From positions 1-18,216 of the forward strand of contig JAQGOW010000205.1 of assembly GCA_028293405.1 (NCBI GenBank): 18,216 nucleotides of DNA, read 5' to 3'. A program made the translations under genes and the position numbers. Of this stretch, positions 4,070-17,909 are shown piece after piece (positions within the stretch are counted from its first letter, which is position 1; each line of letters opens with the position of its first letter). The notes beneath the pieces are model-generated. The model saw only the letters and a program-made list of their open reading frames with translations, did not search any database and was not told the DNA's origin. Source of the stretch: Verrucomicrobiales bacterium (GTDB lineage: Bacteria > Verrucomicrobiota > Verrucomicrobiia > Limisphaerales > Palsa-1400).

Positions 4070-4339
4070 ATGAAAAAACTCATCACAATCGGTTTCGCCG
4101 CAGTGTTGTTCGTCGGCTGCAAGAGCAGTTACGACGTTACACTTAACAATGGCTCGCAGTACACTAGCGTGAGCAAACCGAAGCTGGACCCGGACAGAGG
4201 CGTCTACATTTTTAAGAACATGTCGGGCAAATCTTACACGGTCCCGGAGACGCGCGTTCGCACGATTGAACCACACACGAAGAGAGACCCGAAGTTCCGC
4301 AACCAATCGGATTCGGAATTTAAGTCTTCCGGAAGGTAG
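4070..4339 (+). CDS. Small YgdI/YgdR-family lipoprotein
   Basis: An 89-residue protein starting MKKLITIGF with a lipoprotein signal peptide. The lipobox LFVGC puts the lipidated cysteine at residue 17. The mature part has the small SH3-like fold pattern of the YgdI/YgdR (DUF903) family: YDVTLNNGSQYTSVSKPKLD, a turn, then a strand pair ending in VRTIEP. This matches the Escherichia coli proteins, whose function is unknown, but the tail after about residue 70 is an extra charged extension. A purine-rich GAAGAGG lies about 17 nt upstream of the ATG, further than ideal. A TTGACG -35-like hexamer at 4012-4017 lacks a good -10. The last 20 bp overlap the 3' end of ribE on the other strand, so the two transcripts converge with antisense ends. 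Confidence 0.75.
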   Translation: MKKLITIGFAAVLFVGCKSSYDVTLNNGSQYTSVSKPKLDPDRGVYIFKNMSGKSYTVPETRVRTIEPHTKRDPKFRNQSDSEFKSSGR

Positions 4340-4928
4340 CAAAGCGCTCGGCGTATTTGCCAAGCATATCGGCCTCGAGATTCACCGCTTCGCCGACTTT
4401 GCGTTCGTGCAATGCCGTCACTTTGTAAGTGTGCGGAATGATCCAGACGCGGAACGATTTTTTGTTCACGTCCGCAACAGTCAGGCTGATGCCATCGACA
4501 GCGATTGAGCCTTTTTGCACGATGTAACGGAGAATTTCCGGCGGAGCGCTGATGTCCAACACGTAATCTTTGCCCGACGGTTCCCAACGGATGATCTTAC
4601 CGGTGCCATCGATGTGGCCCGTGACAAAATGTCCACCAAAACGACCATCAGCACGCAACGGGCGCTCAAGGTTGAGGACATTGCCTGGCTTCGCGAATTG
4701 CAGGTTGGTGCGGTTCCACGTTTCGGCGAGCAGTGAAAATTGAATAACCTTTTTACCCGCACGCCTGGTCATTTTTTCGGCCGTTAAACAGCAGCCATTG
4801 ACGGCCACGCTGTCGCCCTGTTTCAGGCCGCGCGCGCAGACGCGGCTGCTGACGAGCAGCCGAATGCCGTTTTTGAGCGGCTCGATTTTTTCCACGTTTC
4901 CCGTTTCTTCAACGATGCCTGTGAACAT
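4320..4928 (-). CDS. ribE: Riboflavin synthase, alpha chain
   Basis: A 202-residue protein of the usual length for the enzyme that dismutates two 6,7-dimethyl-8-ribityllumazine molecules to riboflavin and the pyrimidinedione precursor, in the cytosol as a homotrimer. The N-terminus MFTGIVEETG is diagnostic. The two duplicated lumazine-binding barrels each show their signature: VNGCCLT (43-49) in the first and VDGISLT (144-150) in the second, with GGHFVTGHIDG (98-108) opening the second barrel and IPHTYKVTAL (164-173) near its end. The ATG follows the ribD stop with a single base between (TGA-T-ATG), so translation is probably coupled. It is the last gene of the nusB-PHP-ftsY-ribD-ribE string. 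The enzyme supplying its substrate (RibH) is not in the window. The symbol ribC is used for the same enzyme in some species. Confidence 0.96.
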   Translation of the reverse strand: MFTGIVEETGNVEKIEPLKNGIRLLVSSRVCARGLKQGDSVAVNGCCLTAEKMTRRAGKKVIQFSLLAETWNRTNLQFAKPGNVLNLERPLRADGRFGGHFVTGHIDGTGKIIRWEPSGKDYVLDISAPPEILRYIVQKGSIAVDGISLTVADVNKKSFRVWIIPHTYKVTALHERKVGEAVNLEADMLGKYAERFATFRKT

Positions 4929-4929
4929 A

Positions 4930-6048
4930 TCAGCGCGCTTTCACTCTCGCGTTCAAGAGTAGGTCGCCTCCCAAGCTATGCCATTCGACGTCCTCTAAAA
5001 CAATCTTGTCTTCGAGTTTCAAAATGCCGTCCCCGCCCACCGCCCGAGGCGCTTCGCGTCCGCCGATGACGATCGGCGCGAAAAAAAATGCAACCCGATG
5101 CGCAAAACCATTCAGCAAAAAGTGCGCATTCGTTTCGCCGCCGCCTTCGATGAGCAATTGGGTGACATTTTCCTGTCCAAGTTTCTTGAGCAACCACCGT
5201 ATATCGATTTTGCCGCGACGCTCCGGAGCGACGATTACATTGACGCGTTTGCGGAGTGTTTCGATTTTGCGTTTCGGCGCTGATCCAGAAACGACAACTG
5301 TTGTGGCTGTTTTAAATTCGTCGATGAGCAGTTTTGCATCGAGTTGAATTCTGGCCGACGGATCCAAAACGATTCGGCGCAACGGAAAGGTTCGTTTCGA
5401 AGCGTATTCGCCGCGAACGGTCAGGCTTGGATTGTCGCGAAGAACTGTGTTGATCCCGACGATAATGGCGTCTGACCCAGCGCGAATTTTCATTCCCACT
5501 GCGCGCGATTTATCATTGGTGATCCATTTGGATTCGCCGGTTTTAGTCGCAATGCGGCCATCGAGCGACATCGCCGATTTAACAATAACGAACGGAGTGC
5601 GATGGATGATCCAATGATTGAAGGCCTCATTGAGCCTCGTGCATTCGGTTTCGAGGACGCCAGAAGTGACGGCGATTTTCGCGCGCTGCAAGATTTTGAG
5701 CCCGTTGCCGGCATGTGTCGGATTTGAATCGATAGCGCCGGTAACGAGTCGTTTGATCCCGGCCTTAATCAACGCATCGCTGCAAGGCGGTGTTCGGCCG
5801 TGTGTCGAACAAGGTTCGAGCGTGACGTAGAATGTCGCGCCTTTTGGGTTGTGGCCCTTTCGCTCTGCATCGCGAAGCGCCTCGATTTCCGCATGAGGCA
5901 ACCCCGCGCGATGATGCCAGCCTTCGCCGATAATTTTTCCGGCCTTCACCAAAACAGCGCCGACCATTGGGTTTGGAGAAGTCGCGCCGTAAGCGCGTTG
6001 CGCCAACTTGAGGGCGCGGCGCATCATTAATATGTCCGTCGCAGGCAC
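4930..6048 (-). CDS. ribD: Bifunctional diaminohydroxyphosphoribosylaminopyrimidine deaminase / 5-amino-6-(5-phosphoribosylamino)uracil reductase
   Basis: 372 residues, the usual size of the two-domain RibD that carries out the second and third steps of riboflavin synthesis. The N-terminal cytidine-deaminase-like domain (about 5-145) contains the zinc and catalytic site HAE (52-54) and PC...PPC (Cys80, Cys89). The C-terminal reductase domain (about 150-370) has the dihydrofolate-reductase-like fold with SLDGRIA, WITNDKSR, an NADPH-binding segment IIVGINTVLRDNP, and LIEGGGETNAHFL near the end. The start ATG is 2 nt after the ftsY stop, and the stop is 1 nt before ribE, placing it firmly in one operon. 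ATGs at residues 8 and 9 are possible alternative starts. Confidence 0.96.
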   Translation of the reverse strand: MPATDILMMRRALKLAQRAYGATSPNPMVGAVLVKAGKIIGEGWHHRAGLPHAEIEALRDAERKGHNPKGATFYVTLEPCSTHGRTPPCSDALIKAGIKRLVTGAIDSNPTHAGNGLKILQRAKIAVTSGVLETECTRLNEAFNHWIIHRTPFVIVKSAMSLDGRIATKTGESKWITNDKSRAVGMKIRAGSDAIIVGINTVLRDNPSLTVRGEYASKRTFPLRRIVLDPSARIQLDAKLLIDEFKTATTVVVSGSAPKRKIETLRKRVNVIVAPERRGKIDIRWLLKKLGQENVTQLLIEGGGETNAHFLLNGFAHRVAFFFAPIVIGGREAPRAVGGDGILKLEDKIVLEDVEWHSLGGDLLLNARVKAR

Positions 6049-6050
6049 GG

Positions 6051-6965
6051 CTAATCCTTTTCGAACAAAGCGTCCGCGAATTGTTTAGCGTCGAATGGCT
6101 GCAGGTCTTCGGCCTTTTCGCCGAGGCCGACGAACTTGATTGGCAACCCAAGTTCTTTTTGAATCGCGACGACCATGCCGCCTTTGCTGGTGCCGTCGAG
6201 TTTCGTCACGACAAGGCCGGTGAGTTTGACGGCTTTGTGAAATTCGCGCGCTTGATTCAGCGCGTTCATGCCAGTCGTGGCATCGAGCACAAGGAGAGTT
6301 TCGTGCGGTGCGCCGGGAAGTTTTTTGTCCATGACGCGGTGAACTTTCTGAAGTTCCTGCATCAGGTTGTGTTTGGTGTGCAAACGGCCGGCGGTATCGA
6401 TGAAGAGATATTGTGCGTTGCGCGCCTGCGCTGCGGTGATGGCGTCATGCGCGACCGCCGCTGGATCCGCGTTCGGCGCGCCAGCGACGACTTCGATATT
6501 CAACCGCTCGCCCCAAACTTTTAATTGCTCAACCGCTGCCGCGCGGAATGTGTCGCAAGCCCCGAGCATCGCGAGTCCTCCGTCTTGTTTTACGGAATAC
6601 GCAAGCTTCGCGGCCGATGTCGTTTTTCCAGTGCCGTTCACGCCGACGACGGAAATGACCGTCACCCCGGGAACTCGCTTTAACGTCGGGTCAGCCGTCG
6701 ATAAACTTTTTGTCACTTCCGCGCTGGCGATCGCAAAAACATCCAGACCCGCGCTCCCCTGCGTTTCGTAAGCCTTCTTCACCGCCGTAACGATTTCGCT
6801 CGTCATGGCCATGCCGAGGTCCGCCGCAATCAACGCCGCTTCCAAATCCTCCAGCGTCGCCGCCGTCATTTTCGGCGACGAAGTGACGATGCGTTTGATC
6901 TCGTGCGTGAGCTTGGAATGCGTCTTCTGTAAGCCGTCCTTGAACTTCTTGAATAGTCCTAACAT
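6051..6965 (-). CDS. ftsY: Signal recognition particle receptor FtsY
   Basis: The 304-residue GTPase docks the SRP-ribosome complex at the inner membrane for co-translational insertion of membrane proteins. An NG core is visible. The helical N domain occupies about 1-95. The G domain shows G1 GVNGTGKTT (108-116), DTFRAAA (138-144), G3 DTAGR (190-194), G4 TKLDG (254-258) and the closing GLGEKAEDLQPFD (280-292). The acidic A domain of the E. coli protein is absent; only a short amphipathic basic start (MLGLFKKFKDGLQK) remains, which in such short FtsY proteins serves as the lipid-binding helix. I chose the ATG at 6965 because GAGG lies 8 nt upstream and it gives the standard N-terminus. An upstream ATG at 7025 would add 20 residues and overlap the PHP gene. 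The stop is 2 nt before ribD. Confidence 0.95.
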   Translation of the reverse strand: MLGLFKKFKDGLQKTHSKLTHEIKRIVTSSPKMTAATLEDLEAALIAADLGMAMTSEIVTAVKKAYETQGSAGLDVFAIASAEVTKSLSTADPTLKRVPGVTVISVVGVNGTGKTTSAAKLAYSVKQDGGLAMLGACDTFRAAAVEQLKVWGERLNIEVVAGAPNADPAAVAHDAITAAQARNAQYLFIDTAGRLHTKHNLMQELQKVHRVMDKKLPGAPHETLLVLDATTGMNALNQAREFHKAVKLTGLVVTKLDGTSKGGMVVAIQKELGLPIKFVGLGEKAEDLQPFDAKQFADALFEKD

Positions 6966-6973
6966 GCCGATGA

Positions 6974-6977
6974 CCTC
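6974..6977 (-). promoter_or_regulatory. Shine-Dalgarno site that sets the ftsY start
   Basis: On the minus strand, GAGG within CTCGAGGTCA sits 8 nt before the ATG at 6965. This supports that start over the upstream in-frame ATG at 7025. The site lies in the short gap after the PHP gene. Confidence 0.6.
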
Positions 6978-6987
6978 GAGGTGCTTG

Positions 6988-7821
6988 CTATCGGCGCGGA
7001 TTTTTCCGCGCTTCGTGTGCAGCAATAAGTTTTTCCAAATGATCGCCGGCCAATTTCACCGTGCCGATGAGCGGCTTGCCTTTGCTGTAACCGTGGCAAT
7101 CCGAACCGCCCGTGACCAATAAATTATAGCGCGCGGCGATCTTCAAATAATGTTCGCTGGTCGAGGGCGAATGCTTGGTGTGATAACACTCGATGCCGTC
7201 CAAACCTTGATCGACCATGCTCGGAATCAATTCATCAGTCCGGTTCAATCCCGGATGCGCCATCACTGCTAACCCGCCAGCGTTGTGGACCAGTTCGATT
7301 GCATCCAACGCCGAAACGCGCATCTTCGGCACAAACGCAGGCCGATGCTTTTTCAGAAATCGATCAAACGCTTCGTCCATGTTCGCGCAATAACCTTCCT
7401 GCACGAGCGCGCGGCCAACATGCGGACGCCCCGGAGACTGGCAATTCGCGAGTTTAAAAACTGTTTCGGCCTTTAACGGTATATTGAGCTCGTTTAGCTT
7501 CTTTACCATCTCGTGAATGCGGCTTTGGCGAACGGTCTGATATTTCTTCATCTCCCCGAGCAGCTTCGGGTTTTCAACATCAATGAAATATCCAAGAAGA
7601 TGGACTTCGTTGCCCTCGATTTCAGCCGTCAGTTCGGTGCCGCTGATGAAGCGAATCCCGTGTCCCGCGCAGGCTGCGGCCATGCGCGCGCAACCTTCAA
7701 CCGTATCGTGATCCGTCAAAGACATCGCACCCAACCCTGCCTTCTGGCCGCGATCGGCCAACTCTTCCGGCGTAAATGTGCCGTCTGAGAAATTGGTGTG
7801 AAGGTGAAGGTCGGCGAACAT
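6988..7821 (-). CDS. PHP-domain metal-dependent phosphoesterase (RNase AM/TrpH-like)
   Basis: A 277-residue single-domain PHP protein. The four metal-binding motifs are all present: DLHLHTNFSDG (4-14), TDHDT (36-40) with Glu63 in GTELTA, AHP (188-190), and GGSDCHG (238-244). This arrangement matches the YciV/TrpH group, of which E. coli RNase AM is a 5'-3' exoribonuclease that matures 5' ends of small and ribosomal RNAs and also hydrolyses 3',5'-nucleotide bisphosphates. That activity is likely but not certain here, as the family also holds histidinol-phosphatase-like members. An inserted helical segment near 84-165 is usual for the group. It starts 4 nt after nusB and ends 22 nt before ftsY, so it sits between RNA and protein-export genes in one operon. 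Confidence 0.88.
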   Translation of the reverse strand: MFADLHLHTNFSDGTFTPEELADRGQKAGLGAMSLTDHDTVEGCARMAAACAGHGIRFISGTELTAEIEGNEVHLLGYFIDVENPKLLGEMKKYQTVRQSRIHEMVKKLNELNIPLKAETVFKLANCQSPGRPHVGRALVQEGYCANMDEAFDRFLKKHRPAFVPKMRVSALDAIELVHNAGGLAVMAHPGLNRTDELIPSMVDQGLDGIECYHTKHSPSTSEHYLKIAARYNLLVTGGSDCHGYSKGKPLIGTVKLAGDHLEKLIAAHEARKNPRR

Positions 7822-7825
7822 GCGG

Positions 7826-8326
7826 CTATTTCACAATCCGAGCCGGCCTCATCAGCTCACCTTTGATTTTGTCCAAAATTCCGTTAACAAATTTGCCGCT
7901 ATCCTGTGTGGAAAATTTCTTCGCAATATCGACGGCTTCGTTGATGCTCACGACCGGCGGGATATCGTCGCGATACAACATTTCGTAAACGGCGAGACGC
8001 AAAATATTACGATCCACCACCGCCATACGGTGCATGTCCCAGTTAGCCGCGTGTTCTTTGATTCTCACGTCGAGGGCGTCGCGATTCTCGAGCACGCCAC
8101 GAATCAAGCGGTCGGCAAACAAACGGGTGGACGCTTCTTCCGCGCTGATCGGTGGCAATTCCGTCTTTTGCCCCCAGGTGGCCGGGCCTTTTTCTTCAGC
8201 GATAGCCGGGGCGCGTTGCGTTTCCCAAAAATGGTCAAGCGCCTCATCCATCATTGCTGGTGGATTGAGATCATGCTGAAACAAAAATTGCACTGCGCGT
8301 TCACGCGCTTCACGTCGCTGACCCAT
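7826..8326 (-). CDS. nusB: Transcription antitermination factor NusB
   Basis: A 166-residue all-helical RNA-binding protein that, with NusE (S10), binds boxA RNA and supports antitermination on rRNA operons. The N-terminus RREARERAVQFLFQHDL and the C-terminal block NWDMHRMAVVDRNILRLAVYE...INEAVDIAKKFS...KFVNGILDKI are diagnostic. It is slightly longer than the usual ~140 residues because of an insertion at about 35-65 rich in Pro, Glu and Lys. It is the first gene of the minus-strand string nusB-PHP-ftsY-ribD-ribE. In many bacteria nusB directly follows ribH (lumazine synthase), but here the upstream neighbour is the divergent giant kinase, so ribH has been separated or lost from this site. 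No strong Shine-Dalgarno or promoter is evident just upstream; a weak -10-like TAGAGT lies very close to the ATG. Confidence 0.95.
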   Translation of the reverse strand: MGQRREARERAVQFLFQHDLNPPAMMDEALDHFWETQRAPAIAEEKGPATWGQKTELPPISAEEASTRLFADRLIRGVLENRDALDVRIKEHAANWDMHRMAVVDRNILRLAVYEMLYRDDIPPVVSINEAVDIAKKFSTQDSGKFVNGILDKIKGELMRPARIVK

Positions 8327-8567: not shown

Positions 8568-11500
8568 ATGCCAAATTTACTGATTACGAAGAACGGGAAG
8601 AAGCCGCTGTCTCCCTCCGCTAAAGCGGTCAAACTCGACTCGGCAACCATCTCGTCATCCACCAACGGCCGCACGCGCTCCGGTGCGAACGGTCGCAGTA
8701 ATGGTGTGAATGGCAATGGCAACGATAACGGCAATGGCAAAGCCCATCGCGCTCGCGCCGTCGCTGCCATCGTTGCGGACGATATCGATCATCGCCAAGT
8801 GCTTTCCGCGCTGACCGCTTTCAAGCGCGGCGATTTTTCCGTGCGCCTGCCCGTGCATTGGCTGGGCGTCGGCGGGAAAGTCGCGGAAGCCTTCAACGAC
8901 GTCGCCGACATCATGTCGCAATCCACGCGCGACCTGAACCGCATCAGCCGACTGGTTGGTCACGAAGGTAAAATCAACGAACGTCTTGCCACCGGTCACG
9001 TTACCGGGGAATGGGCGCAACGCATCGATTCGGTTAACACGCTGATTAACTGCTTGGCGCACCCGATTTCTGAAACGGCGCGCGTCATCGGCGCTGTCGC
9101 CAAAGGTGACCTTTCGCAAACGATGGCGGTCGATATCGAAGGTCGTAAACTGGAGGGTGAATTTTCCCGCACAGCGCGAACGGTTAATACAATGGTGGAC
9201 CAGCTCTCCGCGTTCGCCTCTGAAGTGACGCGCGTAGCGCGCGAAGTCGGTACCGAAGGTAAACTTGGCGGTCAGGCGAAAGTTAAAGGGGTCGCCGGCA
9301 CGTGGAAGGACTTGACCGATAACGTCAATCTGATGGCGTCGAACCTCACGTCTCAGGTGCTTAACATCGCGACGGTGACGACGGCGGTGGCTAACGGTGA
9401 CTTAACCAAGAAAATTACGGTCGACGTCAAAGGCGAATTTTTGGAACTCAAAGACACCATTAACACGATGGTGGGTCAGCTCCGTTCGTTTGCGTCTGAA
9501 GTGACGCGCGTGGCGCGCGAAGTCGGCACCGAAGGTATCCTCGGCGGTCAGGCGAAAGTCGAAGGTGTTTCTGGAACGTGGAAAGACCTTACTGACTCAG
9601 TGAACTTCATGGCGTCCAACCTGACGTCCCAAGTTCGTAACATCGCGGCGGTCACGACTGCTGTGGCTAACGGCGACCTCTCGAAGAAAATCACCGTCGA
9701 CGTTAAAGGTGAAATTTTGGAACTAAAGAACACCGTCAATACGATGGTGGACCAACTTTCCTCATTCGCGGCGGAAGTGACCCGTGTCGCACGCGAAGTC
9801 GGCACCGAAGGAAAACTCGGCGGCCAGGCGGAAGTCAAAGGCGTCGCCGGCACCTGGAAAGACCTCACTGACTCGGTGAACTCGATGGCCGGTAACCTGA
9901 CCGCGCAAGTTCGTAACATTGCGGAAGTCACTACGGCTGTTGCGTCGGGCGATCTTTCGAAGAAGATCACGGTCGACGTCAAAGGCGAAATTCTCCAGCT
10001 CAAGAACACCATCAACACGCTGGTCGATCAGCTCTCGTCATTCGCTTCGGAAGTGACTCGTGTCGCGCGCGAAGTCGGCACCGAAGGTATCCTCGGCGGC
10101 CAGGCGTACGTCAAAGGCGTCGCCGGCACGTGGAAAGATCTGACCGACAACGTCAATTCGATGGCAGGCAACCTCACGTCTCAAGTCCGTAACATCGCGG
10201 CGGTGACGACTGCAGTTGCGAATGGTGACCTGACCAAGAAAATCACGGTGGACGTTAAAGGCGAAATTTTGGAACTGAAGAACACCGTCAACACGATGGT
10301 GGACCAGCTCTCGTCCTTCGCGGCGGAAGTGACTCGTGTCGCGCGCGAAGTCGGTACCGAAGGTAAACTTGGCGGCCAAGCGAACGTCAAAGGAGTCGCG
10401 GGCACGTGGAAAGATCTCACCGACTCGGTAAATTCAATGGCCTCAATCCACACCGGCCAGGTCAGTAATATCGCCGAAGTGACGACCGCTGTCGCGACCG
10501 GAGACCTGTCTAAGAAAATTACGGTCGACGTCAAAGGCGAAATTTTGGAACTCAAAAACACCATCAACACGATGGTGGACCAGCTCTCGTCCTTCGCGGC
10601 GGAAGTGACGCGTGTCGCACGCGAAGTCGGCACCGAAGGTAAACTCGGTGGTCAGGCTGAAGTGCGCGGTGTTGCCGGCACGTGGAAAGATCTCACGGAC
10701 TCGGTGAACTCAATGGCCGGTAACCTTACCGCGCAAGTTCGTAACATTGCAGACGTGACGACGGCTGTGGCGACCGGTGACCTTTCCAAGAAAATCACCG
10801 TCGACGTCAAAGGCGAAATTCTCCAGCTCAAGAACACCATTAATACGATGGTGGACCAACTTCGTTCGTTCGCCGCGGAAGTAACTCGTGTGGCTCGCGA
10901 AGTCGGCACCGAAGGAAAACTCGGTGGTCAAGCAGACGTGCGCGGTGTTGCTGGCACGTGGAAGGACCTTACCGACAACGTGAATTTCATGGCGTCAAAC
11001 CTGACGTCTCAAGTCCGTAACATCGCGGCGGTCACGACGGCCGTCGCCAATGGTGACCTGTCCAAGAAGATCACGGTCGACGTCAAAGGCGAAATCCTCG
11101 AACTCAAAAACACCGTTAACACGATGGTGGACCAGCTTTCGTCGTTCGCGGTGGAAGTGACCCGCGTCGCGCGCGAGGTCGGCACCGAAGGAAAACTCGG
11201 CGTGCAAGCGAACGTCAAGGGTGTCGCCGGAACGTGGAAGGACCTCACCGATTCGGTGAACTCCATGGCCTCCAACCTGACCGCTCAAGTGCGTAACATC
11301 GCAGCGGTGACGACCGCTGTCGCGACCGGTGACCTTTCCAAAAAGATCACGGTCGACGTCAAAGGTGAAATTCTCGAACTCAAAGACACCATCAACACGA
11401 TGGTGGACCAACTCCGCTCGTTCGCCTCGGAAGTGACTCGTGTCGCCCGCGAAGTCGGGACCGAAGGCAAGCTCGGCGGTCAAGCTGACGTGCGCGGTCT

Positions 11501-14500
11501 CGCTGGCACGTGGAAGGACCTTACCGACAACGTGAACTACATGGCGTCCAATCTGACGTCTCAAGTCCGTAACATCGCGACTGTCACAACGGCGGTGGCG
11601 AACGGCGACTTGACCAAGAAAATCACGGTCGAAGTTAAAGGCGAGATTCTCGAACTGAAGAACACCGTCAACACGATGGTGGACCAACTTTCTTCGTTCG
11701 CATCTGAAGTGACCCGCGTCGCGCGCGAAGTCGGTACCGAAGGTATCCTCGGCGGCCAGGCGGAAGTCAAAGGTGTCAGCGGCACATGGAAAGATCTCAC
11801 GGACAACGTGAATTCCATGGCTGGTAACCTGACCAACCAGGTGCGCGGTATTGCGAAAGTCGTCACCGCAGTCGCGAACGGCGATCTCAAACGCAAACTG
11901 CTTGTCGAAGCGAAAGGTGAAATCGCCGCGCTCGCGGACACGATCAACGGCATGATCGACACGCTCGCAACTTTCGCTGACCAGGTCACGACGGTGGCGC
12001 GCGAAGTCGGTGTCGAAGGAAAACTCGGCGGTCAGGCCTCGGTGCCCGGCGCTGCAGGTACGTGGAAAGATCTTACCGATAACGTCAATCAGCTCGCCGC
12101 GAATCTAACTACCCAAGTCCGCTCCATCGCGGAAGTGGCGACGGCGGTGACGAAAGGTGACCTCACTCGTTCCATTCAAGTTGATGCCAGCGGTGAAGTC
12201 GCGTCGTTGAAAGACAACATCAACGAGATGATTCGTAACCTCAAAGACACGACGATCAAGAACAACGAGCAGGACTGGCTCAAGACCAACCTCGCCAAGT
12301 TCACTCGTATGTTGCAAGGCCAACGCGACATGCTCACCGTCGGTAAACTCATTCTCTCCGAACTCGCGCAAGTCGTCTCCGCGCAACAAGGCGTGTTCTA
12401 CATTGTTGAAACGCCGAAGGACGAACAGGCAAAAGGCAGCACGGTCGAAGATCACACCGAGCCATTCCTCAAGCTCCTGGCCAGCTACGCCTATCGCAAT
12501 CGCAAGCATGTCGCCAACAAGTTTGCGCTTGGCGAAGGATTGGTCGGACAAGCTGCGCTCGAGAAGGAACGCATCCTCCTCACCAATGCCCCACCGGATT
12601 ACGTCCAAATCGGTTCGGGTCTCGGCCAGGCGCCACCGACGAATATCATCGTCCTGCCCATTCTGTTCGAGGGCGGCGTGAAGGCGGTTATGGAACTGTC
12701 ATCGTTCGAACAATTCAGCCCGACGCACCAGGCGTTCCTTGATCAGCTCATGGAATCCATCGGCATCGTGTTGAATACGATCGAGGCCAATACGCGAACG
12801 GAAGATTTGCTCAAGCAATCGCAAAAACTGGCCAAAGAACTCCAGAGCCGCCAGGAAGAATTGCAGAACACGAACGAACAGTTGCAGGAAAAAGCGAAAC
12901 TGCTCGCCGACCAAAACGCGGAAGTCGAACGCAAGAACAGCGAAGTCGAACAAGCCCGTCAGGCGCTGGAAGAAAAAGCCGACCAGCTCGCGCTTACTTC
13001 CAAATACAAATCAGAGTTCCTTGCGAACATGTCGCACGAATTGCGCACGCCGCTCAACAGCTTGCTCATTCTTGCCGACTCCCTCGCCGGCAACAACGAA
13101 GGCAACCTGTCCAACAAACAAGTCGATTACGCCAAGACCATTCATGCGTCCGGTAACGACCTGCTCACGCTCATTAACGACATTCTCGACCTCTCCAAGA
13201 TCGAGTCTGGAACGGTCACGCTCGAAATCGGCGAACGCCGCTTCACCGACTTGCGCGATTACGTGGATCGCACGTTCCGCCACGTCGCCGAGTCGAAGAA
13301 CCTCGCGATCAAACTCGATCTCGACGAGAGCCTGCCGAGCTTCATCACGACGGACTCGCAACGTCTCGAGCAGGTTATCCGCAACCTGCTTTCGAACGCG
13401 TTCAAGTTCACCGAAAAAGGCCAGGTCACATTCAGCATCGCCAACGCGACGGCAGGTTGGAGTCAGGACCGCGAAACACTCAATCGCGCGCGTCAGGTCA
13501 TTGCCTTCTCCGTGTCCGATACCGGTATCGGTATCGCGCCGGAGAAACAGCAACTCATCTTCGAAGCGTTCCAACAAGCGGACGGTTCGACCAGTCGCAA
13601 ATACGGCGGCACCGGCCTCGGTCTGGCGATCAGCCGCGAAATTGCACGCTTGCTCGGTGGCGAAATCCGCCTGGCCAGCGCGCTCGGTCAAGGCAGCACC
13701 TTCACCTTGTATCTGCCAGTGAGTCCTGCGCCGATGCGCACGGTCAAGCGCGTCGCGCCGATGCCGGTTGTGCCGCCGCAACTGTTGCCGCCGTCCGATC
13801 GCATGACGACCTTGTCGCCGATGAACGCGGAAGAGTCGGCAACCGAATTGGTCGAGTTCAGCGTCGTCGACGATCGTTCGTCCATCCATCCGGGCGACCG
13901 CGTCCTGCTGATTGTCGAAGACGATCCGCACTACGCCGCGTTGTTGCTCGAAATGGCGCACAACAAAGGCTTCAAAGGCGTCATCGCCTCCCACGGCGCG
14001 GCGGCCTTGTCGCTCGCGCGCGAATTGAAACCCGACGCCATCACGCTCGACCTGCGCCTGCCCGACCTCGATGGCCGTCGCGTGCTCGATCGTTTGAAGG
14101 TCGACTTCACCACGCGCCACATCCCGGTGCATATCATTAGCATGTGCGAGGACTTGCAGCCCGAACTGGCTCAAGGCGCGCTCGGCTACCTGACCAAGAC
14201 GCACATTCGCGAGACGCTTGAACAAACCTTCAGCGACATCAAGATGTTCGTCGAACGTCCCGTCAAGAACCTGCTCGTGGTGGAAGACGACGATATCCAG
14301 AGCCGAAACATCCGCGAATTAATCGGTAACGGCGACGTCCACACCACCACCGTCAAGACCGGCAAAGAAGCCTTGGACGAACTGCAGAAGCACAAGTACG
14401 ACTGCATCATTCTCGATCTCAAGCTCCCGGACATGCCCGGCATGCAGTTGCTCGAGACCATAAAGAACAAGCCCGGCGCCAAGCCCATTCCCACGCTCGT

Positions 14501-15065
14501 CTACACCGCGTTGGACTTGCAGAAAGACCAGCACGCGCATCTCAAGACCATGGCCGAAGCCATCTTGATCAAGGACGCGCGCGCCCCAGAGCGCCTGCTC
14601 GACAAGGCCTCGCTCATCCTGCACCGCAACGTTTCCAAGTTGCCCGACAAGCAACGTCAAATGTTGCAAACGCTCCATCACGCCATTCTCGAAGGCAAAC
14701 GCGTGCTCGTCGTCGACGACGACGTCCGCAACATCTTCGCCATGACCAGCGTGCTCGAACGCTTCGAGATGAAAGTCTTGTCGGCCGAAAACGGCAAAGA
14801 CGCCATCGACATGCTCGTGAAGAAAAAGAACGAGATCGACATCGTTCTCATGGACATCATGTTGCCCAACATGGACGGTTACGAAACCATCCGCACCATC
14901 CGCCAAATCGCCGGGTTCGAGGAACTGCCGATCATCGCCGTCACCGCCAAAGCGATGAAAGGCGACCGCGAAAAATGCATCGCCGCCGGTGCATCCGACT
15001 ACGTGGCCAAACCGGTCGACCGCGAGCACCTGCGGTCGGTATTGCATGTCTGGCTGCATAGGTAA
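8568..15065 (+). CDS. Giant soluble poly-HAMP hybrid histidine kinase with three receiver domains
   Basis: 2165 residues from ATG 8568 (2172 from TTG 8547); neither start has a clear Shine-Dalgarno. Order: a Ser/Asn/Gly-rich low-complexity leader (about 20-65), a divergent HAMP region (about 75-219), eleven 92-residue HAMP plus HAMP-like units (220-1231), a GAF domain (about 1240-1400), a Gln/Glu-rich coiled coil (about 1400-1480), and HisKA with His1490 in [12 protein letters not shown]. An HATPase domain follows ([29 protein letters not shown]; to about 1720). Three receivers close the protein, with predicted phospho-aspartates Asp1828, Asp1950 and Asp2096. No signal peptide or membrane helix is seen, so it should be cytosolic. 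The architecture matches bacterial poly-HAMP kinases and resembles fungal group III (Nik1/Os-1) kinases, whose HAMP chains act as the sensor or conformational relay. No HPt domain is present, so onward transfer needs a separate protein. The input signal is unknown. Confidence 0.93.
9225..12260 (+). repeat. Eleven tandem 276-bp (92-residue) in-frame HAMP units
   Basis: Units begin at 9225, 9501, 9777, 10053, 10329, 10605, 10881, 11157, 11433, 11709 and 11985, with no indel between them. Each encodes [17 protein letters not shown], a [10 protein letters not shown] block (HAMP-like linker), then [19 protein letters not shown] and LK-T-NTMVDQL (canonical HAMP). Units 1-9 are nearly identical. Unit 10 diverges in its second half and unit 11 throughout, as expected at the edge of an array. 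Units 3-5 resemble units 6-8 in order, which suggests duplication of a three-unit block. Long shared DNA stretches make the locus prone to unit gain or loss and to mis-assembly. Confidence 0.97.
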
Positions 15066-15141: not shown

Positions 15142-15330
15142 TCGCGGGCGTCCGCGACGCCGCCGCGGGCGTCCGCGGAGCGACGGGGGACGTCCGCGAT
15201 CCCTCCGGGGACGCCCGCGAACCGCTCGCGGGCACCCCTGAGCCCATCGCGGAACTCCCCCAACCGTTCGCGGGCATCCCTGAGCCGTTCGCGGACGCCC
15301 GCGAGCTATTCGCGGGACTCGATAAGTCGT
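15142..15330. repeat. Nine tandem 21-bp repeats, mostly dyad-symmetric
   Basis: Nine units start every 21 bp from 15142. The core is TCGCGG-NNNN-CCGCGA. Units 1 (15142), 2 (15163) and 8 (15289) have perfect 6-bp inverted arms; the 16-bp core of unit 8 is the exact reverse complement of that of unit 1. Units 3 and 4 keep most of the right arm and units 5, 6 and 7 most of the left arm. The period is a multiple of three, and the frame of the downstream REC-PAS gene stays open through the whole array back to a TTG at 15108. The array would then encode nine 7-residue Gly/Ala/Pro/Arg-rich units. No ATG lies in that frame before 15360, so it may instead be an untranslated spacer. Confidence 0.85.
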
Positions 15331-15359: not shown

Positions 15360-16277
15360 ATGATCCACGACCTCATGGAAGCTCCCCCGGTCCCGATGAG
15401 CACCGCTCGTGTTTATCATGAACAATCACTGGCTCCCGCGAAGATCCTCATCGTCGATGATCGCGAGGACAAACTCATCGCCCTCGAATCCGTCCTTTCC
15501 ACCTTGGGCGAAAATATTATTCTCGCGCGCACGGGCCGCGAAGCCTTGCGCGAAATCTTGAATCACGAATTCGCCGTCATCCTGATGGACGTCTTCATGC
15601 CAGCCATGGACGGCTTTGAAACCGCCGCCATGATTCGCCAGCGCGCTCAATGCGCCAACACGCCGATTATTTTCATCACCAGCGTTCACAATACCGATGA
15701 CTTGACGGCGCGCGGCTATTCGTTGGGCGCGGTCGATTACATTTTTTCACCCATCGTGCCCGACGTCTTGCGCACGAAGATCGGCGTGTTCCTGGAGCTC
15801 TATCGCAAAAACAAAATTATCGAGGAACAAAGCAAAATCATCAGCAAGCGGCCCGCGTCGATGGACCCGGCCTCGGGAACCGGCGAGGACCGCTTGCAAT
15901 TGCAAACCCGCGCCAACCCGTTCTTCATGCTCTCGCCGCAATTGCTCGCGGTGATCGATGGCCGTGGTTTGTTTCGGCGCGTCAACCCCGCGTGGGAACA
16001 TCACCTGGGTTTCATCGAAGATGAGTTGCGCGACAAATCGATCCTCACGTTGGTGCACAATGACGATTGGGAAGACGTGAGCAAAGCGCTGATGCAAGTC
16101 GGGCGCGGTGCGCCGACGACCTTTAACGCGCGCCATCGCTGCAAGTCGGGCGGATACCGGAAGCTGGCTTGGACCGTCCTGCCGTTCGTCGGCACTGATT
16201 TCTATTACATCTTCGCCCGCGACCTCGCTCCAACGCCCGCCAGTAAGAAGTTGCACATCGGTTTCTCGCGGTCATAA
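15360..16277 (+). CDS. REC-PAS response-regulator-like signalling protein
   Basis: 305 residues from ATG 15360. A receiver domain (about 25-150) has the acidic pocket DD in ILIVDDRED, the predicted phospho-aspartate Asp77 in LMDVFMPAMDG, and a Thr/Ser switch in IIFITS. The usual lysine position reads FSPIVP: there is no lysine in the beta5 motif (YIFSP in place of the usual KP pair), which may alter phosphorylation chemistry. A short helical linker leads to a PAS domain (about 185-290) with NPFFMLSPQLLAVIDGRG, FRRVNPAWEHHLG and a closing FARDL. There is no DNA-binding or enzymatic output domain, so it probably works by protein contact, for instance as a phosphate sink or scaffold for the upstream hybrid kinase. 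The upstream gene ends about 295 bp before this start. ATGs at 15375 and 15396, or a TTG at 15108 that would add 84 residues and include the 21-bp repeats, are alternatives. Confidence 0.82.
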   Translation: MIHDLMEAPPVPMSTARVYHEQSLAPAKILIVDDREDKLIALESVLSTLGENIILARTGREALREILNHEFAVILMDVFMPAMDGFETAAMIRQRAQCANTPIIFITSVHNTDDLTARGYSLGAVDYIFSPIVPDVLRTKIGVFLELYRKNKIIEEQSKIISKRPASMDPASGTGEDRLQLQTRANPFFMLSPQLLAVIDGRGLFRRVNPAWEHHLGFIEDELRDKSILTLVHNDDWEDVSKALMQVGRGAPTTFNARHRCKSGGYRKLAWTVLPFVGTDFYYIFARDLAPTPASKKLHIGFSRS

Positions 16278-16292: not shown

Positions 16293-16472
16293 ATGCAACT
16301 CACCGAACAAGTCCAATGCCCCTTCTGCGGGAGCCGCTTCGAGTTGGAATTCGACACCACCATCCGCGACCAGTGTTTCACCACCGATTGCGAAGTCTGC
16401 TGTCGGCCCTTCGAAGTCTCCGTCCAATGCGAAGGCGGCGAAGTCACCACGCTGGACATTCGCGGCGAGTAA
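16293..16472 (+). CDS. CPXCG-motif cysteine-rich small protein
   Basis: A 59-residue protein beginning MQLTEQVQCPFCGSRFELEF. It has the CPxCG pair near the start (Cys9, Cys12), Cys28, a DCEVCCRPF segment with Cys33, Cys36 and Cys37, and a further Cys46. This matches the CPXCG cysteine-rich family of short conserved proteins (about 60 residues), with two CxxC pairs that likely bind one zinc ion in a ribbon-like fold. The function of the family is unknown to me. It starts 15 bp after the REC-PAS stop, so the two genes are probably co-transcribed. The next gene, argA, starts 99 bp downstream. Confidence 0.87.
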   Translation: MQLTEQVQCPFCGSRFELEFDTTIRDQCFTTDCEVCCRPFEVSVQCEGGEVTTLDIRGE

Positions 16473-16571: not shown

Positions 16572-17909
16572 GTGAAACTGACCGATTTACGGGGCATCCT
16601 CCAATACATCCCGCGGTTCCGGGAAAAGATTTTCGTGCTCAGCATCGATGGGGCGATTGTCACGAGCGAGAACTTCGCCAACATCCTCCTGGATGTCGCC
16701 GTCCTGCGCTCGCTGAACATCAAAATCATTTTGGTCCACGGCGCCGCTGCACAAATCGGCTTGCTCGCGCAGGAACAAAACATCACCCCGTCCAATCTCG
16801 ACGGCAGCGGCGTTACTGATGCCGCGACTTTCAAACTCGCGCTCACCGCCGCGAACCGTTTGACCCACGAAGTGCTCGAAGGCCTCAGCGCCAATGACCT
16901 CCGCGCCGCGAGTACGAACGCAATTATTTCCCACCCGATGGGCATCATCCACGGCGTCGATCATTTGCTCACCGGCAAGGTCGAGCGTGTTGACGTCGAG
17001 TTGCTGCAATCGTTGTTGGCGCAAAATATTGTCCCGGTCGTTTCGCCGCTTGGCTTCGACGGCGACGGCAAAACCTATCGCGTCAATTCCGACAGTGTCG
17101 CGTATGAAGTCGCCAAGGCGATGAACGCGACCAAGCTGATTTACATCACGACGGCCGACGGTTTGATCTACAACAAGGAAGTCATCCCGCAGATGCTGGT
17201 CGCTGAACTCGAGGCGTTGCTGTCGCAACACAAAGAAAAGTTCGCGCCGGAGATTTTATCCAAAGCCGTCAACGGCGCCGCCGCCTGCCGCGCCGGTGTG
17301 CCGCGGGTGCATATCATCAATGGACGCATCGACGAAGCCGTGTTGGCCGAAGTGTTTTCCAACGAAGGCATCGGCACCTTGGTTTACGCCAACGAATACC
17401 AGCAGATTCGCCGCGCGCTGAAGAAAGACGTCCGCGCCATCATGATGCTGACCAAGAACTCCGTCGCGAGCGAGGAGTTGGCCAAGCGGACACGTCCGAT
17501 GATGGAAAAAATGATTTCGGACTTTTACATTTTCGAAACGGACAAAAACCCGATCGCCTGCGTTGCGCTGCATCAACTCGATGCGACCAAGGGCGAACTG
17601 GCGTCGTTGTTCGTCAGTCCGTCGCACGAAAATCAAGGCATCGGCAAGAAGTTGATTCAGTTCGCGGAAACGAAAGCCCGCGACATGGGCCTGACCGATT
17701 TAATCACGCTCTCGACGCAGGCCTTTACGTATTTCCAATCCAAAGGCGGATTCAGCGAAGGTTCGCCCGATGATTTGCCACCCGAACGTCGTGCCAAGTA
17801 CGACGCCAGCGGCCGCAATTCCAAGGTGCTGGTGAAGAAGCTCACAAGGCCGACCACGACGCCCGAAACCAGAATGGCCATCGAAGCCGTTGCGCAAACG
17901 CTGACATGA
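16572..17909 (+). CDS. argA: N-acetylglutamate synthase (amino-acid N-acetyltransferase)
   Basis: 445 residues, almost the length of the classical ArgA enzyme, which transfers an acetyl group from acetyl-CoA to glutamate as the first step of arginine synthesis. The N-terminal amino-acid-kinase-like domain (about 1-280) usually binds arginine for feedback inhibition. It has IILVHGAAAQI, SGVTDAATF, VVSPLG, RVNSDSVAYEVA and YITTADGLI, but SIDGAIV in place of a glycine-rich kinase loop, as expected for a non-catalytic domain. The C-terminal GNAT domain (about 290-425) has ASLFVSP and the acetyl-CoA loop ENQGIGKKL, then LSTQAFTYFQSKGF-like residues typical of ArgA. I chose the GTG start at 16572 because it gives the expected N-terminus (GILQYIPRFREKIFVLSIDG); a weak AAGAAG lies upstream. 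Its TGA overlaps the ATG of a mini-ORF leading to the L,D-transpeptidase gene. Confidence 0.93.
   Translation: MKLTDLRGILQYIPRFREKIFVLSIDGAIVTSENFANILLDVAVLRSLNIKIILVHGAAAQIGLLAQEQNITPSNLDGSGVTDAATFKLALTAANRLTHEVLEGLSANDLRAASTNAIISHPMGIIHGVDHLLTGKVERVDVELLQSLLAQNIVPVVSPLGFDGDGKTYRVNSDSVAYEVAKAMNATKLIYITTADGLIYNKEVIPQMLVAELEALLSQHKEKFAPEILSKAVNGAAACRAGVPRVHIINGRIDEAVLAEVFSNEGIGTLVYANEYQQIRRALKKDVRAIMMLTKNSVASEELAKRTRPMMEKMISDFYIFETDKNPIACVALHQLDATKGELASLFVSPSHENQGIGKKLIQFAETKARDMGLTDLITLSTQAFTYFQSKGGFSEGSPDDLPPERRAKYDASGRNSKVLVKKLTRPTTTPETRMAIEAVAQTLT

Follow-up and report, generated by a model that had tools for sequence, protein, structure and literature searches.

The window, i.e., the whole stretch of 18,216 nucleotides analysed here (contig JAQGOW010000205.1 of assembly GCA_028293405.1, from a Verrucomicrobiales bacterium), carries on its forward strand the gene of a poly-HAMP hybrid histidine kinase (8568..15065; ATG start, 2165 codons plus stop, no internal stop). 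The protein begins with a low-complexity tail rich in Ser, Asn and Gly (8568..8780), which has a net charge of +7 across its first 59 residues. It is followed by a family-specific N-terminal block (8781..9224) of probably three HAMP modules, the third being a clear Pfam HAMP; the connectors of these putative modules lie at 8829-8852, 8964-8987 and 9105-9128. Then come eleven units of exactly 92 residues each that tile 9225-12260: units 1-9 (9225..11708), made up of a HAMP-like and a canonical HAMP module apiece, and the divergent end units 10 and 11 (11709..12260). A GAF domain (12324..12773; Pfam and structure model) has the HAMP chain on one side and the kinase on the other, and a long helix, the coiled-coil linker (12774..13007), leads into the kinase. 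The latter consists of the HisKA dimerisation domain (13008..13211; Pfam), with the expected phospho-histidine in the motif SHELRTP (13032-13052), and of the HATPase_c catalytic domain (13353..13724; Pfam), with its N, G1 and G2 box motifs. The C-terminal part is formed by three Pfam receiver domains, at approximately 13905..14240 (LDL aspartate in 14040-14066), at approximately 14271..14630 (LDL aspartate in 14406-14432) and at 14703..15044 (MDI aspartate in 14844-14870).

The HAMP, GAF, kinase and receiver domains all score above the Pfam cut-offs, and in the one kinase core and the three receivers with their aspartate motifs every kinase and receiver motif searched for is present. The structure model of the GAF domain is good (mean pLDDT 79) and matches GAF structures with a best E of 1.4e-7. 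A hydropathy scan of the protein revealed no membrane helix: within the N-terminal 220 residues, the region singled out in the first-pass annotation, the 19-residue maximum is 1.01, and the maximum for the whole protein (1.57) is located within the GAF domain. Scan and domain content thus bear out the view, taken there, that the protein is a cytosolic hybrid kinase without a membrane segment. The gene is a real, intact one for a soluble bacterial signalling kinase and an ordinary member of a widespread, already studied family.

Downstream on the same strand follows a partner gene (15360..16277), which encodes a receiver and a PAS domain without a kinase half and which is homologous to the REC-PAS-kinase partners of relatives. 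Among 87 loci with 600 bp or more of sequence (window included), 61 have a frame with a receiver match that opens 400 bp or less downstream; in the other 26 no such partner was found within this distance. Of the 45 partner frames that are closed, 42 have a kinase-core match as well, at a lenient threshold of 15 bits; those without one are the partners of the window and of the loci L154 and L162. The alignment of the partners at L040, L042, L043 and L047 to that of the window ends with PAS (46-50% identity); for their kinase halves the window offers counterparts solely in its other kinases. The same short REC-PAS form is found in the sister species G001, the one other genome of the genus that was compared (L180; 311-aa frame, 74% identity), and an assembly fault is for this reason unlikely. 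In the window and in G001 the partner has shrunk to REC-PAS with loss of the kinase half. Although receivers form the end of the kinase, no HPt protein was detected in the genome of the window (G000, 67% complete).

Several features of the surroundings should be mentioned in their own right. Between the stop of the kinase gene (15065) and the ATG of the partner (15360) there is a 21-bp tandem repeat (15143-15316), in frame with the partner. The two coding regions of G001 are only about 46 bp apart, and in the piece compared the 21-bp repeat is unmatched. At L109, L129, L123 and L165, which group with Oxalobacteraceae, a receiver gene is located upstream instead of downstream, at L165 on the opposite strand. 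Behind the partner gene of the window are a short frame of 59 residues with the cysteine pairs CPFC and CEVC (16293-16472), which by these pairs we take to be of the CPXCG type, and, on the forward strand, a frame with an amino-acid kinase and an acetyltransferase domain (16572-17909), presumably a pair as in the N-acetylglutamate synthase ArgA. The reverse strand carries a second histidine kinase with a 7TM region, GAF and HATPase (236-2353), which we assume to be PrsK-like, and a housekeeping run (4320-8326) for a lumazine-binding protein, RibD, an SRP-type GTPase (presumably FtsY-like), a PHP domain protein and NusB.

The frame is unbroken from 9225 to 12260 and the units account for 1012 of the 2165 residues, i.e., for almost half of the protein, as had been stated from the start. 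The array was recovered independently by TRF (9192-11821, period 276). Compared with itself, the protein is 83% identical when offset by 92 residues and 85% when offset by 184. That there are eleven units of 92 residues is correct; their alleged near-identity holds for units 1-9 only (84-93% identical), unit 10 being 67-74% identical to units 1-9 and unit 11 58-63% identical to the rest. The last unit is strongly conserved among the 22 relatives that were aligned with that of the window. At the DNA level units 1-9 are pairwise 74-86% identical, and for the same residue they use the same codon in 45-71% of cases, where 46% would be expected from the codon usage of the gene. Silent codon choice among these units is therefore near random, which indicates that their likeness is old and has been kept by selection on the protein rather than generated by recent copying; a recent expansion of the array is thereby ruled out. 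A two-unit super-repeat was also considered and rejected, since in the window a shift of 184 gives barely more likeness than one of 92, and since in 51 genes, some with misphased arrays, mean identity falls from 87.2 at a distance of one unit to 83.8 at seven units without even/odd alternation.

Within one protein the inner units resemble each other more than they resemble the units of relatives at other positions. In 17 proteins that had 11 units by an earlier count, the inner units of one protein are 86-93% alike and off-position units of different proteins 79-83% (a range that leaves out the misphased L073). When units are compared position by position, the window shows a significant excess of similarity (3-4 points) with just three proteins, those of L040, L043 and L047. 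From these comparisons we infer a long-lasting homogenisation of the units within lineages.

How many HAMP modules the chain contains depends on how the profile matches are read. In the whole protein Pfam finds 12 HAMP and 12 HAMP_2 stretches, one of each per unit and one of each in the N-terminal block, and when units 1, 5, 10 and 11 and the N-terminal block were scanned singly, all five pieces were above the cut-off for both profiles. It would be wrong, however, to add these stretches up to 24 modules: in the singly scanned pieces HAMP and HAMP_2 mark one and the same stretch, the second half of the unit, and none of the five first halves submitted matches a Pfam family. Because both profiles fall on the identical half-unit, Pfam supports 12 modules. 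The first halves nevertheless show the HAMP register when a profile of the 11 first halves is aligned with one of the 11 second halves (hhalign probability 87, E 4.2e-6, 45 columns). Within the N-terminal block the first module gives a sub-threshold Pfam HAMP match (14.2 bits, cut-off 25) and the second none, both of these modules being seen from the helices of the structure model. In this AlphaFold model of the rod, a low-confidence monomer (mean pLDDT 50.4) that was used for the helix pattern alone, a helix-connector repeat alternates between 51 and 41 residues. The chain is thus likely to comprise 25 HAMP-like modules (3 + 22), of which 12 are plain, firm HAMPs. The first-pass annotation had assigned to each unit one canonical HAMP and one HAMP-like module, which is right for the second halves and likely for the first; its total of about two dozen is firm for the 12 modules recognised by Pfam and likely for the remainder, to which profile comparison and the low-confidence model point.

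The start of such a rod is already covered, in a relative, by a solved structure. PDB entry 9trk ("histidine kinase,Gcn4p") can be aligned gap-free (E 1.5e-113, residues 11-293 of 343) from the N-terminal block through unit 1 into unit 2, and the related entry 9trj matches the same N-terminal region (E 1.1e-67). Both have the N-terminal block and first units in common with the window protein, but they cover only the rod's start, fused to GCN4, whereas the window protein has the full chain. Neither entry is among the structure-library matches listed for the rod model (library entries end April 2026). The top three matches of the low-confidence rod-start model are poly-HAMP structures of Aer2 (4i44, 4i3m and 3lnr; probability 1.00, E 0.008-0.025). 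Aer2 from Pseudomonas aeruginosa, which likewise has concatenated HAMPs, is also found by sequence (3vol; E 0.0035 with a single sequence, 2.1e-8 with a profile of the second halves), and the NCBIfam Aer2 model reaches 323 bits (cut-off 1200) on the window protein through the HAMPs. Aer2 is, however, a chemoreceptor with PAS and few HAMPs rather than a kinase, and a Pfam scan of the window protein found neither an MCP signalling domain nor a haem PAS. For Aer2 two HAMP packings with opposite output have been reported (PMC3570549).

The likening of the window protein to fungal Nik1 in the first-pass annotation is right, or likely so, as far as architecture is concerned: the fungal group III kinases (Nik1/Os-1/Bos1) and the window kinase are both cytoplasmic and have HAMP repeats, a kinase and a receiver. 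The nearest studied relatives are bacterial, namely AskA/AskB and the protein of 9trk. Fungal group III kinases have one receiver and are not known to carry a GAF domain. The cytoplasmic fungal class III enzymes have five to six HAMP repeats (PMC3418262). These repeats adjoin the kinase, and the window kinase departs from this arrangement with its eleven units and its intervening GAF domain. AskA and AskB from Myxococcus xanthus and Amb07 from Sorangium are described as hybrid kinases that lack transmembrane regions and combine a long poly-HAMP part with several receivers (PMC7643160). By this description the window protein, with its many N-terminal HAMPs, its lack of a transmembrane segment, its HisKA and HATPase_c domains and its several receivers, is to be placed beside AskA/AskB. 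For AskB 11 repeated HTH-like matches are reported (PMC7643160), from which about 11 units can be inferred there. Directly after askB lies askC, a further hybrid kinase gene, whose product binds AskA and AskB; its receiver interacts with Rec3 of AskA (PMC7643160). It should be noted that askC encodes a kinase, whereas the adjoining partner in the window is REC-PAS without a kinase half, so that a behaviour of the AskC type cannot be assumed. A link of the window's genus to fruiting bodies or ambruticin was not found in this analysis.

The chain itself was initially regarded as the probable sensor, a view that is wrong or incomplete since it overlooked the GAF domain and the downstream partner gene. 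According to this explanation osmotic, crowding or small-molecule effects would act directly on the HAMP stack, as for fungal Nik1. The window protein, almost half chain and without a membrane part, would fit, and HAMP mutations alter osmotic and fungicide responses in fungal class III kinases (PMC3418262). On the other hand, a GAF sensor domain sits between chain and kinase, ambruticin was bound weakly in vitro by AskC but not by AskA or AskB (PMC7643160), and fludioxonil reportedly does not have the kinase as direct target (PMC6433957). We consider it improbable that the chain is the sensor.

Spacing along the chain is strict. The 93 arrays of related genes that were counted (see below) gave 798 unit-to-unit steps, of which 776 span precisely 92 residues; only 12 arrays have any other step, some of them compensating ones (94 + 90) that are possibly motif shifts. 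This suggests that helix phase matters. Among 86 genes whose coiled-coil linker to the kinase was measured, 33 have a linker length other than that of the window; for 23 of these 33 the difference is a multiple of 7. The ten non-heptad differences are due to L163, perhaps a misread motif, and to nine genes of one divergent Verrucomicrobia clade, within which 8 of the 9 linkers measure 36, 43 or 50 and are thus again sevens apart (the exception is L135 with 60). Variation by whole heptads is what should be expected of a coiled coil that transmits rotation.

The spacing also bears on the proposal that the chain mainly serves as a scaffold or spacer, which would hold the dimer, recruit kinases or position the kinase on DNA with little signal passing along the chain. 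A function of this kind would be in line with findings on other systems: binding of AskB to the mrpC promoter has been seen in vitro, the Ask kinases interact among themselves (PMC7643160), and in cytosolic FrzCD a di-HAMP tunes DNA binding and oligomerisation (PMC12077210). HTH-like matches, as cited for the Ask proteins, are found in the window protein too (SpoIIID with 31.2 bits, cut-off 27; HTH_6 with 18.7 bits, cut-off 28.3). However, no single stretch passes alone and both lie within the HAMP chain, so that they probably reflect chance resemblance added up across the repeats; real helix-turn-helix domains within the chain were therefore rejected. The basic N-terminal tail would speak for a scaffold, but basic N-termini are common in bacteria. 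Considering also the strict spacing, which counts against a mere spacer, we judge this proposal unlikely.

We favour as the probable interpretation that the window protein is a bacterial poly-HAMP hybrid histidine kinase of the AskA/AskB type (group III-like) that acts as a HAMP-rod relay. Two parallel chains would pair up into a stiff rod in which about 25 HAMP four-helix bundles are stacked; by a geometric estimate of about 2.4-2.6 nm per module, its length would come to roughly 50-65 nm. Each HAMP would flip between two helix packings, and the rod would in this way carry a conformational state between a binder, at the N-terminus or along the flanks of the rod, and the GAF-kinase end, where GAF ligand binding and rod state would jointly set autophosphorylation. 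The phosphate would pass through the protein's own receivers to the receiver of the partner. The 92-residue unit and the whole-heptad changes of the linker may serve to hold the helix phase constant when the protein changes in length.

The family is found well beyond the window's genus. The N-terminal block is present in 21 of 97 near genomes (E<=1e-3), in 11 of 387 genomes of the phylum (E<=1e-8), in 20 of 338 genomes of the class of an Azospirillum locus (E<=1e-15) and in 14 of 236 genomes of the phylum of a Sorangium locus (E<=1e-15), the centre genome being included each time. From a scan of species genomes the best 80 of at least 570 confirmed stretches were kept. Units were counted in 93 genes drawn from the window and the loci L039-L178 (141 sources), in frames with a kinase motif, an uncut 5' end and a start more than 80 residues before the first unit; sources cut by contig ends, broken or without a kinase motif were left out. 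Two units were found in 3 of these genes, three in 2, four in 2, six in 2, seven in 5, eight in 9, nine in 18, ten in 3, eleven in 36, twelve in 4, thirteen in 6, fourteen in 2 and sixteen in 1, in a sample that is not random but ranked by similarity to the window's N-terminal block, with part of the loci chosen mostly for long frames. Eleven is thus the commonest count (36 of 93 genes; range 2-16), and the chain of the window, which had been called unusually long, is at the mode. Many draft contigs break off inside arrays; three counts of Sorangium (9, 7 and 11), however, come from complete chromosomes, and variation is therefore not an assembly effect alone.

The count seems to be drawn to 11 and 9, values that were chosen after the data had been seen, and this hints at a selected rod length. 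A tree was built for 91 genes, with two near-copies set aside; on it the label 11 must have changed at least 18 times, and 13 of these changes are forced by well-supported branches. Allowing easier entry to 11 (about sixfold) raises lnL from -189.1 to -183.6 and lowers AIC from 384.2 to 375.1; it should be kept in mind that in all count-preference models the targets were picked after the counts were seen and that the tree was built quickly. With easier entry to 9 alone lnL is -184.7, with easier entry to both 11 and 9 it is -179.5 (AIC 369.0), and with harder entry to 10 it is -181.6. With 7, 8, 12 or 13 as target there is next to no gain (lnL -189.1 to -188.6), and a smooth pull to a mean brings no improvement (lnL -188.6). 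We treat the preference for 11 as a lead.

It is conceivable, if rather doubtful, that the rod length is a selected molecular ruler, with the count drawn to 11 and 9 across phyla, 10 avoided and the units homogenised within lineages. If this were true, the protein would need a defined length, or a defined number of helical turns, to reach from an anchor at the N-terminus to the kinase. Set against this ruler, we regard it as fairly probable that eleven is a neutral outcome, i.e., that an ancestral 11-unit array has mostly lost units by recombination with its length unselected. Counts change often, even between close relatives: for example, two Sorangium genes that are 92% alike have 9 and 7 units. 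A model in which 11 is merely left more slowly gives almost the same fit as one with easier entry (lnL -184.1). Odd counts predominate (67 of 93), an excess that is owed to the peaks at 9 and 11, yet a strict odd-number rule was rejected since the sister pairs that differ (n=29) do so by an even number in 13 cases and by an odd one in 16; a factor of 3.0 for even steps in the rate model, with an lnL gain of 2.6, is regarded as weak. What a neutral count explains less well is that sixfold easier entry to 11 fits better than no preference and that adding 9 improves the fit again. No published unit counts or repeat statistics were found in the titles and abstract openings listed; the 92-residue stepping, the whole-heptad changes of the coiled coil and the drawing of the count to 11 and 9 are possibly new.

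The general question on which this family bears is how HAMPs transmit signals and for what reason certain proteins have them stacked by the dozen. Nature provides here a series of rods from 2 to 16 units in nearly fixed steps of 92 residues, with which the dependence of signalling on rod length is directly testable. The gene of the window, otherwise a typical member of a known family, derives its value from being one point in this natural series of rod lengths.
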